From assembly GCA_021740905.1 (NCBI GenBank), contig JAIOYV010000020.1, positions 1-64,000 of the forward strand: DNA of 64,000 nucleotides, read 5' to 3'. This stretch comes from Bacteroidales bacterium (GTDB lineage: Bacteria > Bacteroidota > Bacteroidia > Bacteroidales > M50B96). The notes below the pieces were generated by a model that saw only the letters and a program-made list of their open reading frames with translations, was not told where the DNA came from and made no database searches. The position numbers and the translations under genes were made by a program. Below, in pieces: positions 4,195-9,927 of this stretch (its first letter is position 1; every line of letters begins with the position of its first letter).

Positions 4195-4720
4195 CCCATA
4201 TGTACGGGACAGGCCCTGATACAATTCATTACAGTGTAAACGAGGATACTTCGACAAGGTCAGTGCAAATTTTCTTTTTAGTTGAAGGGTTGAAGGGTTG
4301 AAAAGTTGTTTAATAGTTGAAAAGTTGAATGGTTGAAATTGTCATTTATAGTCATTAAGTTGTCATTTGGCTGCGCCGTCATTAAGTTGTCAAGGGTTGA
4401 GGGGTTGAAGAGTTGTTTAATAGTTGAAAGGTTGAAAGGTTGAAGGGTTGAAAGGTTGAAGGGTTATTTGCTGCGCTGCCTGCCCCGTTTTTCCGGGATC
4501 ATTTGGCTGCGCCGTCATTTATAGTCATTAAGTTGTCATTGATAGTCAATTGCTGCGCGTCATTAAGTTGTCCTCCTACACTAAAGCTTCGGAGGGTAAA
4601 CCGACTGATAATGGTCATTGATAGTCCTACTACGCAAAAACAAGCTTCGCAGGATAAATCATTCAGTTGTCATTCTTAGTCAAACATTAAATTGTCAGAG
4701 ATAGTCAGAAAATTTTCGAT
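4195..4720. repeat. Large mixed interspersed-repeat array
   Basis: In order: a 'gggacaggccctgatacaat' element, a 'cttcgacaaggtcagtgc' element (4249-4267), GTTGAA decamers (4280-4340), GTCATT units (4339-4395), more decamers (4396-4465), 'ttgctgcgctgcctgcc' words, more GTCATT units, and two 'cctac...cttcg.agg' elements (4572-4605, 4628-4655). Nearly every sentence has a close counterpart elsewhere in the first 6.4 kb. I see no gene in 4115-4806. Confidence 0.85.
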
Positions 4721-6445: not shown

Positions 6446-8365
6446 TTACTCAACCGGCCAAATTTTCTTACCACTCAAATAATCCAACACTTTTTCACCA
6501 TCTGTTTCTGTGGGTTTGAGGGAAAGGGCAATGTTTGTTGGTATGTCGTAATTTAAATCTACACCCGGAATATCATGCAATTTTCCTTCTTCAGCTTTGG
6601 CATAGAGGTCGTCTTTCCCTTGCTGTTTGCAGTATTCGACATCGGCATCCATGTATATGAGATGAAAAAGGCCGGGGCCAACAATCTCGGCTATTTGCTG
6701 ACGAATATATTCGTTGGGTGAAATAAATGAACAAACAGTGATGATACCCTGATCGTTCAACAATTTACAAATATGGGCAACACGACGTAGGTGCTCGGCC
6801 CGGTCGGCTTGGGAAAAGTCCAATTCGCGACTTAAACCCGATCGGACTGATGTACCATCCAATAAAACGGCTACAGCACCCATGTCGAATAGTTTCCTTT
6901 CAAGGGTAAAGGCCAATTGGTTTTTGCCTGACCCGTGCAAACCAGTTATCCAAATAGTAGCTCCCTTCTGGTTGTTTCGTTTTTCACGTTCTTTCAACGA
7001 GACCAGACTTTGTCCCTTTTGGATTTTCTGGACTTCCATATCAGTGATACGAGAAGGCAAATCTTTGCTGGCCATGCGGTCGATTATCATACCTACCGCA
7101 CAGGTATTATTGGTAATGGGATCAATCAAGATAAAAGACCCGGTAGCCCGATTTTTTGTGTAAGGGTCAAAATAAAGTGGCTTGTTGGTTGTGATCACGA
7201 CCCGCCCGATCTCATTCAGTTGGAAATTTTCGATATTGGATTTATGCAAGGTATTAACATCAATCTTATAGCGGATGGTGTCGATTCTGCCCTTGGTTGT
7301 GTTGGTGGTATGTTTTACAAAGAATTGCGAGTTGGCATCCATGGGCTTTTCGTCCATCCACACCAACATGGCCTCGAAATGACGCTCAATGCGTGGCATG
7401 TTATTGGGGTGAACGAGCATATCGCCGCGCGAAATGTCAATTTCATCTTCCAGGGTAACCGTCACAGACTGGGGCGGGAATGCTTCGACAAGCTCAGCAT
7501 CCTGTGTAATGATTGATTTTACTTTGGTTATTTTCCTTGAAGGAAGCACCATTACGCTATCCCCTTTGCGAATAATACCCGAAGCCACCGAGGTTGAAAA
7601 TCCCCGGAATTCATTGTCGGGTTTCAACACATATTGAACAGGATAGCGCATATCAACAAAATTTCGGTCGCTGCTCACGTGGATGGTTTCCAATAAATCG
7701 AGGATACACTTCCCGGAATACCAAGGCATATTGGTTGACCGGTCTACCACATTGTCGCCTTTTAAAGCTGAAAGAGGAACAAAGTGAACGTCAGGAATAT
7801 CCAACCGAGTGATGAAGTTCTTATATTCTGAAACGATTTCGTCGAAACGTTCCTGGGAATAGTTCACTAAATCCATTTTGTTTACCGCGAGGACAACATG
7901 TTTGATTCCCAGTAATGAAACCAAAAAGGTATGCCGACGGGTTTGGGTGATGACACCGTTTACAGCATCTACCAAAATAATGGCCAGGTTTGCTGTGGAA
8001 CCGCCGGTCACCATATTTCGGGTATATTGCTCATGACCGGGTGTGTCGGCTATAATAAACTTTCGTTTGTTAGTCGAAAAATAGCGGTAGGCCACATCGA
8101 TGGTGATACCCTGTTCGCGTTCGGCTTTCAGACCATCAAGCAAAAGTGCGTAATCAATCTCTTCCCCGGCATGGCCCACGCGTTTGCTGTCGCGTTCTAA
8201 AGCCACCAATTGGTCCTCATACAATTTCTTGCTATCGAAAAGTAAGCGCCCGATCAGGGTTGATTTTCCATCGTCAACGGATCCAGCCGTAAGCAAACGG
8301 AGAAGATCCTTTTTTTCGTCCTGGTTTAGGAAAGAGTTTATGTCTAAATTTGATGTGTGTGTCAT
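6446..8365 (-). CDS. cysNC: Bifunctional sulfate adenylyltransferase subunit 1 / adenylylsulfate kinase
   Basis: 639 residues. Residues about 20-440 form the CysN GTPase: P-loop GSVDDGKS at 28-35, [20 protein letters not shown], then the two beta-barrel domains with [13 protein letters not shown]. Residues about 465-639 form an adenylylsulfate-kinase (CysC) domain: [50 protein letters not shown]. CysN with CysD makes APS from sulfate and ATP; CysC makes PAPS. The kinase P-loop has Asn instead of the usual Ser/Thr after Lys, and the usual DGDNVRHGL is altered, so this domain is divergent. cysD lies upstream in the same direction, separated by the four-helix-bundle cassette. The gene ends with TAA. 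Confidence 0.93.
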
Positions 8366-8385
8366 TATTGTATTCTTAATATTTG

Positions 8386-8567
8386 TTGCTGGTTGCTGGT
8401 TGCTGGTTACTGGTTACTGGTTGCTGGTTGCTGGTTACTGGTTACTGGTTACTGGTTGCTGGTTGCTGGTTACTGGTTACTGGTTGCTGGTTACTGGTTA
8501 CTGGTTGCTGGTTGCTGGTTGCTGGTTGCTGGTTACTGGTTGCTGGTTGCTGGTTGCTGGTTGCTGG
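8386..8567. repeat. 26-copy heptanucleotide tandem array (TTGCTGG/TTACTGG)
   Basis: Twenty-six perfect-length 7-bp units, each TTGCTGG or TTACTGG, fill 182 bp without a single indel. By my count 17 units are G-type and 9 A-type, in irregular order. The array starts 20 bp upstream of the cysNC start codon and ends 5 bp before the stop codon of the four-helix-bundle gene. Four more units in inverted orientation flank the other side of that gene (8986-9012). All six frames through it are open or nearly so because 7 is not a multiple of 3 and the units lack stops, which creates spurious reading frames. Confidence 0.97.
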
Positions 8568-8572
8568 TTTGG

Positions 8573-8953
8573 CTATCTCCAACTTGATTCAACATATTGG
8601 ATAAACTTATTAATTTTTCTTCCCAACTCATTATATTTTCCCAATAAATCCTTCCATCCATTTTGATCCTTATACAATTCAATAATCATTTCTATTTGAC
8701 CTGTACATTCATCACACGATGCTTGTGAATAAACCAAAAATTTAATAAAATCAGCTTTATACCTTTTTCTTCCGTATCCTTCAGAAATTGCATCTTTAAT
8801 ACCTTTCGATGATCGACGTACTTGACTACCTTGTTCATAGAGTTCGAAAGAGGGCAGCTTTAAAGATTCTTTATGAACCTGAATAGCAAGAACGAAAGCC
8901 ATTTTATATATTTCTAAATCATGATAACCAGCCATATAATCATTCCTTGACAA
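8573..8953 (-). CDS. Four-helix-bundle protein (23S rRNA intervening-sequence protein family)
   Basis: 126 residues, nearly all helical. Motifs typical of the family (TIGR02436-type) are HDLEIYKMAFVLAIQVHKES, the SQVRRSSKGIKDAISEGYGR turn, DFIKFLVYSQASCDECTGQI, and a final helix with YNELGRKINKFIQYVES. Relatives were first noted inside 23S rRNA intervening sequences of spirochaetes. In Bacteroidota they occur as scattered single genes; a ribosome or RNA role is suspected but not proven. Here the gene sits between cysD and cysNC, same direction, bounded by inverted arrays of one 7-bp repeat (8386-8567 and 8986-9012), suggesting it arrived as a cassette. Confidence 0.88.
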   Translation of the reverse strand: MSRNDYMAGYHDLEIYKMAFVLAIQVHKESLKLPSFELYEQGSQVRRSSKGIKDAISEGYGRKRYKADFIKFLVYSQASCDECTGQIEMIIELYKDQNGWKDLLGKYNELGRKINKFIQYVESSWR

Positions 8954-8985
8954 TCTTCATTTACTCCATATCGTTACATTTCAAT

Positions 8986-9012
8986 CAGTAACCAGTAACC
9001 AGCAACCAGCAA
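8986..9012. repeat. Inverted heptamer units flanking the four-helix-bundle gene
   Basis: Four units read CAGTAA, CCAGTAA, CCAGCAA, CCAGCAA on the plus strand: the reverse complement of the TTACTGG/TTGCTGG units at 8386-8567. The last unit abuts the cysD stop codon (9013-9015). A few more units of the same orientation occur near 12006-12037. Confidence 0.9.
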
Positions 9013-9927
9013 CTAAAAATACCCTTCCCGTTTTTTCTGTTCCATGCTGCCGTCCTGGTCGAAGTCGATAACCCGGGTGGTACGTTCGGATTTGGTGGTG
9101 GTCATCATTTCTTCAACGATCTTTTCGATTGTATCGGCATCGGATTCAACAGCCCCAGTGAGCGGATAGCATCCGAGTGTGCGGAAACGGACCATCCGCA
9201 TTTTTGCCTTTTCGGCCAATTCCTTTGGCATTCTTTCATCATCAACCAAAACCAAAGCACCATTGTATTCTATGATGGGCCGCTCTTTTGCATAATACAA
9301 GGGCACAATTGGGATATTTTCGAGGCGGATATATTGCCAGATATCTAGCTCTGTCCAGTTTGAGATAGGGAAAACACGGATCGATTCGCCTTTGTGTACT
9401 TTTGCATTGTAGATGCTCCACAGTTCGGGACGTTGATTTTTTGGATCCCATTGATGGAATTTATCCCTGAAAGAGAAAATGCGCTCTTTGGCCCTTGATT
9501 TTTCTTCATCACGACGGGCACCGCCAAAGGCTGCATCGAAACCGTATTTATCGAGTCCCTGGAGAAGTGCTTGTGTTTTCATCACATCGGTGTGTACTTT
9601 GCTTCCGTGGCTAAAGGGTCCTATGCCCGATTCAAAGCCTTCCTTGTTGTAATGGACAATCAGGTTCCAGCCTTTCTCTTTGGCATAGTTATCCCTAAAT
9701 TCAACCATTTCCTTAAATTTCCATTTCGAGTCGATGTGCATAAGGGGAAATGGCACCTTGCCCGGATAAAAAGCTTTCTCGGCCAGGCGCACCATCACAG
9801 ATGAATCTTTCCCTATGGAATACAACATAACCGGGTTTTCAAATTCGGCTGCTACCTCGCGGATAATGTGAATGGCTTCGGCTTCGAGCTCGCGTAGGTT
9901 GGTAAGGCTGTAATTGTTTTCTGACAT
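9013..9927 (-). CDS. cysD: Sulfate adenylyltransferase subunit 2
   Basis: 304 residues, full length for CysD. The PP-loop ATP-pyrophosphatase signature is [20 protein letters not shown] near residues 34-53. Other family blocks are [50 protein letters not shown] and the terminal [10 protein letters not shown]. It binds sulfate and ATP and forms the heterodimer with CysN that makes adenosine 5'-phosphosulfate. cysNC would normally follow immediately; here 647 bp of repeat and four-helix-bundle gene intervene. The stop codon directly touches the heptamer repeat. Confidence 0.96.

Follow-up and report, generated by a model that had tools for sequence, protein, structure and literature searches.

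A probable minimal mobile element of the IVS/S23p type between inverted heptamer arms in a Bacteroidales cysD-cysNC spacer

Introduction

Genes of the TIGR02436 family are common in Bacteroidota and Cyanobacteria, and to our knowledge a function has been assigned to them only in rRNA intervening sequences (IVSs) and diversity-generating retroelements (DGRs). The Coxiella IVS consists of an S23p open reading frame (ORF) within a 28-bp terminal stem, which is cut by RNase III (PMC4990558). The element described here was found in a 64-kb stretch of Bacteroidales DNA, hereafter the window. It resembles the 23S rRNA IVSs with an S23p ORF, as found in Coxiella burnetii, Leptospira and Azospirillum, in its PF05635-type ORF, its complementary termini, its length (all about 0.4-0.65 kb), its sporadic occurrence and its codirectional orientation with the host transcript. 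However, the window element lies in the spacer of an mRNA operon, and on one side its arm is a perfect heptamer array of much greater length.

TAACTGA repeats of Beggiatoaceae, Cyanobacteria and Bacteroidota form arrays that are mostly operon-internal and just upstream of start codons, and a TAACTGA-binding protein was suggested as a possible mobile element (MacGregor, 2015; PMC4679880). They share intergenic tandem 7-bp units of the YAAC-NNN type with the arms of the window clade, when those arms are read on the downstream strand, but they were described as direct repeats without a partner gene, and no link to IVP genes was proposed (PMC4679880). REPIN/RAYT systems are also small hairpin-ended intergenic DNA, possibly moved in trans by Y1 transposases. 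In contrast, the window element has arms made of tandem heptamers instead of REP palindromes, together with a conserved protein gene of its own.

In this study, an IVP gene is a four-helix-bundle gene of the PF05635/TIGR02436 (IVP/S23p) type, and G000 is the genome from which the window was taken. No earlier description of inverted heptamer arms at four-helix-bundle genes was found in the literature searched, which left subscription journals mostly out of reach.

Results

The insert between cysD and cysNC, two genes of a sulfate-assimilation operon, measures about 0.63 kb, gene and both arms together (Table 1). The long array holds 25 overlapping exact copies of the 14-mer TTRCTGGTTRCTGG, equal to 26 perfect TTRCTGG units; in the whole window this 14-mer has 27 matches, against 0.01 expected by chance. 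On the inverted side, three units (8992-9012) are perfect, and the fourth (8985-8991, TTACTGA on the minus strand), the most distant from the cysD stop, carries one mismatch. The initial annotation had counted 26 and four units; the 26 perfect units stood, while one of the four inverted units proved to be imperfect. TRF gave 26.4 copies at 8385-8569 and 4.6 copies at 8982-9013. The position of the arrays was borne out as well: 20 bp separate the long one from the cysNC start (8365), and the shorter one ends at 9012, against the cysD stop codon (9013-9015). Profile searches found both CysD and CysNC full length, in agreement with the proposal that neither neighbor was broken by the insertion.

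Table 1. Positions of the insert, its parts and its host genes in the window
Feature	Position	Strand	Description
cysD	9013..9927	-	Upstream host gene in operon; intact; NF009214/TIGR02039 CysD, 512/505 bits, full length
Upstream arm, four 7-bp units	8985..9012	-	Gene strand: TTGCTGG TTGCTGG TTACTGG TTACTGa; begins at cysD stop codon
IVP/S23-type four-helix-bundle gene	8573..8953	-	126 codons, TTG start; PF05635 2.5e-21, TIGR02436 3.2e-22
Downstream arm, 26 perfect units	8386..8567	-	CCAGYAA on gene strand; inverted relative to upstream arm
Remainder of cysD-cysNC spacer (20 bp), ahead of cysNC start	8366..8385	-	Insert-free spacer of a sister genus is 27 bp
cysNC	6446..8365	-	Downstream host gene in operon; intact, full length; NF004035 881 bits

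The assignment of the 126-codon gene to the four-helix-bundle family was confirmed by the scores of its product, 76.3 bits for PF05635 (cut-off 33.8) and 78.8 bits for TIGR02436 (cut-off 24). It is the sole gene between the arms, and no transposase or integrase, as would mark a DDE insertion sequence, is encoded there. No Rfam match was found in the window, and the insert sits between cysD and cysNC, not in a 23S rRNA gene; it does possess the S23p ORF between complementary termini that characterizes the 23S rRNA IVSs. Elsewhere in the window, arrays of an 8-bp unit, AGTTGAAA/GGTTGAAG, were observed at 847-890, 1995-2141 and 4280-4465. Their neighbors are a UDP-GlcNAc epimerase-like C-terminus, a RhuM-like gene and a PIN-type toxin-antitoxin pair, and the first array (847-890) seems to lie within the reading frame of the epimerase C-terminus.

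We examined the flanks of other IVP genes. G000 (6.5 Mb, 160 contigs) carries ten full-length TIGR02436 genes and one partial match. All ten full-length genes lie between inverted arrays of short units, both flanks being read by eye, and the units differ at each locus (TTGCTGG in the window, GTTTCGG, GTTCAAA, AAATTTG, GAATAGTGA and others). The best inverted match of the two 350-bp flanks had a median score of 39 in G000 and order-level loci, in comparison with 20 for mispaired loci and 21 in direct orientation. Among 123 IVP genes from relatives and other phyla, some of whose loci share ancestry, the median was 35 and 76% reached an arbitrary threshold of 28, about a quarter falling under it. 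Among 265 other genes of 80-300 codons, which were ORFs from the same set of loci called by a simple ORF caller, the median was 20 and 8% reached 28 (p = 3e-41). These two percentages bear on the question, raised in the initial annotation, of how often inverted short repeats flank such genes. Relatives were searched with the window protein as the single query; the genomes are often fragmentary, and a simple ORF rule served to call genes outside annotated records. The top-scoring controls were Y1/RAYT-like transposase genes at L088 (16783-17580) and L140 (5753-6211), with REP-like inverted repeats and no heptamer arrays in their flanks.

Of 146 scored arrays, 103 had a period of 7 or 14, and roughly half of the others had one of 8 or 16. 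On the gene strand, the upstream arm was richer in G than in C in 90 of 96 cases. Eight of nine cyanobacterial plasmid copies had inverted arms by score (30 to 64; units such as GGAGCAG and GGGAAAA), and those of the ninth (L172) were recognized by eye only. On a Pseudanabaena plasmid (L173), an IVP gene with AAAAGCT-type arrays was observed between cas6 and cas4. An element of the same anatomy, a classical IVS, was also present inside a 23S rRNA gene of Azospirillum lipoferum plasmid AZO_p2 (L256), in a hairpin loop at about model positions 1213-1219; its arms are inverted 7-bp units (GACAGAG GACGGAG ..., score 47).

The relation between the arms and the protein was also analyzed. The relatives of the window protein with 49-72% identity are encoded at 79 loci, which belong to Bacteroidota, Chlorobiota, Desulfobacterales, anammox Planctomycetes, Nitrospirae, Cloacimonadota and Calditrichota, and nearly all of these loci have arms of the form GTT-R-Y-N-R, repeating each 7 bp. 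Across phyla, more similar proteins had more similar arms (Mantel rho 0.50, p = 0.001): among pairs with protein identity above 60%, 35% had arms with a similarity of 0.6 or more, and no pair below 40% did. Within G000, by contrast, no arm was common to any two elements. In 70 of 77 cases, the arms of an element were closer to each other than to those of same-clade elements (p = 3e-12), and in 39 of 81 they had the local unit in common, where 10.8 would be expected. The correlation with the protein and the agreement within elements indicate that the arms pass down together with the gene and that the two arms of an element evolve in concert. The simplest cause of a clade-specific unit would be that the protein binds it, but co-inheritance would also arise without binding and is no proof of binding by itself.

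The AF2 model of the window protein has four helices (pLDDT 94). Its nearest folds were the S23p structures 2gsc (Z 18.7) and 2rld (Z 16.0), unrelated bundles scoring about 13; matches to pectin-methylesterase inhibitor and talin bundles (Z about 11-13) were set aside as common four-helix arrangements. The fold is also like that of Avd of DGRs (4dwl, Z 12.8; 8ub7, the DGR ribonucleoprotein, Z 13.6, barely above unrelated bundles). However, the window gene adjoins no reverse transcriptase (RT) and no template/variable repeat, its neighbors being cysD and cysNC, and the single RVT_1 match of G000 is on a separate contig (C141). Values of dN/dS were mostly 0.02-0.2, and 0.08 for copies at different sites of one genome, which shows that the protein is under purifying selection. 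The Xanthomonas S23p protein is reported to be a homopentamer (PMC4990558), and the window protein is probably a pentamer as well.

Next to the IVP gene, the neighbors on both sides were codirectional at 106 of 120 loci. In 25 genomes with a close cysD, an IVP gene lay between cysD and cysN in seven, always codirectional. Twelve of the remaining 18, including the nearest relative, G001, have cysD-cysN spacers of 1-27 bp, and these short empty spacers are without arrays. Uninterrupted sites in relatives, which the initial annotation had proposed to look for, were thus found; being in other genera or diverged congeners, they are too distant for a target-site duplication to be measured. In G001 the element may have been lost or may never have been present. 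The seven spacer proteins are 14-34% identical to each other, one pair (64%) excepted, and this low identity means that at least six separate lineages have used the cysD-cysN spacer. With further cases, 14 proteins require 12 location changes on the tree. Of the closest relatives of the window protein, some occupy this spacer (L092, L094, L096, L098) and others lie elsewhere, so that the window copy itself may have descended vertically, with losses in some lineages. Members of the window IVP clade also recur in another spacer, the one after a NuoF/HoxF-like gene (L102, L117, L118, L121-L123, L125). A further spacer, with an IVP element in one congener (L205), is occupied in three others (L213, L214 and L215) by a gene of GxxExxY type (possibly a PD-(D/E)XK nuclease), before locus position 1501, and hence seems open to different small genes.

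Copies at more than one site were compared. In genome G025, two elements (L197 and L201) at unrelated sites encode proteins that are 92% identical and have the same AAGGCTC/AAGGCGC arms. L179 and L188, which are 81% identical and share TTTCAGAG arms, occupy different sites in two congeners, and same-clade elements were found between unrelated genes in several phyla. At one operon site in four congeners, L206 and L208 have the full element, L209 has an internally deleted gene, and all that remains in L207 is a downstream-type array, its end an exact match to that of L208. These comparisons of sequences indicate that the gene and its arms form one mobile unit, and the occurrence of gene plus arms at many unrelated sites in many phyla, including rRNA, makes it look like a very small mobile element. 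The mobile cassette of the initial annotation is thereby upheld by the empty spacers, the second-site copy with its arms and the series of full, decayed and solo-arm states, but not in the retro-type or homing route suggested for it. Two adjacent IVP genes with equal scores, as if tandem duplicates, were seen in G030 (C67, 66548-66862 and 67087-67401).

G000 contains 14 further TTRCTGG arrays that do not adjoin an IVP gene. Heptamers spread through the genome apart from such genes had been named as evidence against a cassette, and these arrays go part of the way. However, 11 of the 13 with judgeable orientation (L085 by eye) are of the downstream-arm type before a codirectional gene, and this orientation, together with the solo-arm state at one site, suggests that they are left-over arms; one known scar is not proof that every solo array is a scar.

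Perfect TAACTGA units were absent from the window arms, whose unit is CCAGYAA, i.e. YAACCAG, and three tandem TAACTGA units had 0 matches in G000. We read 20 TAACTGA arrays from the phylum; two of them adjoin an IVP gene and one adjoins a cysD stop. In L228, from another Bacteroidota genome, a TAACTGA array was observed near position 1500, a few bases past a cysD stop, with no IVP gene nearby. Since for most of the arrays there is no IVP gene closer than 1.5 kb, the link to TAACTGA is only partial, and the association in these sequences is a lead rather than proof.

The question of the mobilizing enzyme was approached through gene counts. In 60 relatives, the number of IVP genes correlated with that of Y1 (HUH) transposases (rho 0.64), more strongly than with DDE transposases or RT; the partial correlation was 0.51 after genome size, DDE and RT counts were allowed for (permutation p = 0.0005). 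The DDE control was also positive but weaker (0.32 allowing for genome size), and the correlation with Y1 may reflect a general load of mobile DNA. Y1_Tnp has five matches in G000. Y1 enzymes work on hairpins in single-stranded DNA. On the strength of the count correlation and of inverted arms able to form hairpins, mobilization in trans by HUH (Y1) transposases would be the best candidate, although a doubtful one. As for a retro-type or homing process, 15 of the 35 genomes with at least two IVP genes have no RVT_1 match, the RT count was uncorrelated with the IVP count once genome size was allowed for, and no homing endonuclease was seen in the window element. The retro-type route was therefore rejected as a general account.

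Discussion

We consider it likely that the window element is a minimal mobile element of the IVS/S23p type in an operon spacer; its arms probably serve as binding sites for the protein it encodes. This reading draws on the observed anatomy and generality of the elements, the clade-specific and concerted arms, the duplication, the decay series, the recurrent insertion and the purifying selection. The arms would travel with the IVP gene, stay matched and carry a unit specific to the protein clade, and the IVP protein would bind the repeated heptamer of its own arms. The element would enter spacers between codirectional genes, where it would do little harm, and would be transcribed by the host operon, so that it would need no promoter of its own. 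Cutting and joining would probably be done in trans, and loss of the element could leave a solo downstream arm before the next gene.

Another explanation, which we regard as unlikely, is that the element is an IVS-type RNA insulator: the arms would pair, RNase III would cut the stem and release the IVP message, and the arms would be kept for processing, not for mobility. The architecture is identical to that of rRNA IVSs with RNase III-cut stems (PMC4990558), the rRNA copy L256 has the same kind of arms, and the elements are placed codirectionally. The arms of the window are also predicted to pair in the transcript (fold z -2.6). However, G-U tolerant mismatches in the arms were not in excess (145 against 192), the wobble-pair test having the opposite sign, and selection for RNA pairing is thus not supported; the surplus copies of the long arm (26 units against 4) would be useless for pairing. 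The mRNA hairpin around the gene that had been proposed earlier is accordingly possible as a fold, but its pairing bears no such mark in the arm mismatches.

It is also unlikely, in our judgment, that the gene is a resident autoregulator whose arrays are DNA or mRNA operators tuning the operon, spread by vertical or horizontal transfer of the operon with no transposition. Such a gene would agree with the strong purifying selection, with arms that touch the adjoining stop and start regions, with the same-clade relatives in the cysD-cysN spacer, and with solo arrays just upstream of codirectional genes, as argued for TAACTGA (MacGregor, 2015; PMC4679880). It is at odds with same-clade elements between unrelated genes in several phyla, with a second-site copy complete with arms in one genome, and with unrelated IVP lineages in the same spacer. 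Chance bracketing by two slippage-made heptamer arrays, abundant in the genome as the 14 further TTRCTGG places and the other short arrays of the window might suggest, has next to no probability and is already refuted as a general account by the excess of inverted arms at IVP genes over other genes, by arm units that follow the protein clade across phyla and by the array-free empty spacers of relatives.

The mobile-element reading can be extended, more tentatively, to the family. IVP genes with clade-specific heptamer arms might make up a large class of minimal mobile elements that extends across phyla and has no known transposase, in which the protein reads its own arms and helps mobility. 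The IVSs would be the rRNA-resident members of the class, and TAACTGA and perhaps cyanobacterial short tandem repeats would be left-over arms, so that the class may explain mysterious dispersed heptamer repeats. If this is true, one idea would link three questions: what the family does, how rRNA intervening sequences arose and where scattered heptanucleotide repeats such as TAACTGA come from. It would also predict a code, in which each protein clade binds its own 7-bp unit, and elements of different clades coexisting in one genome would be a natural assay for that code.
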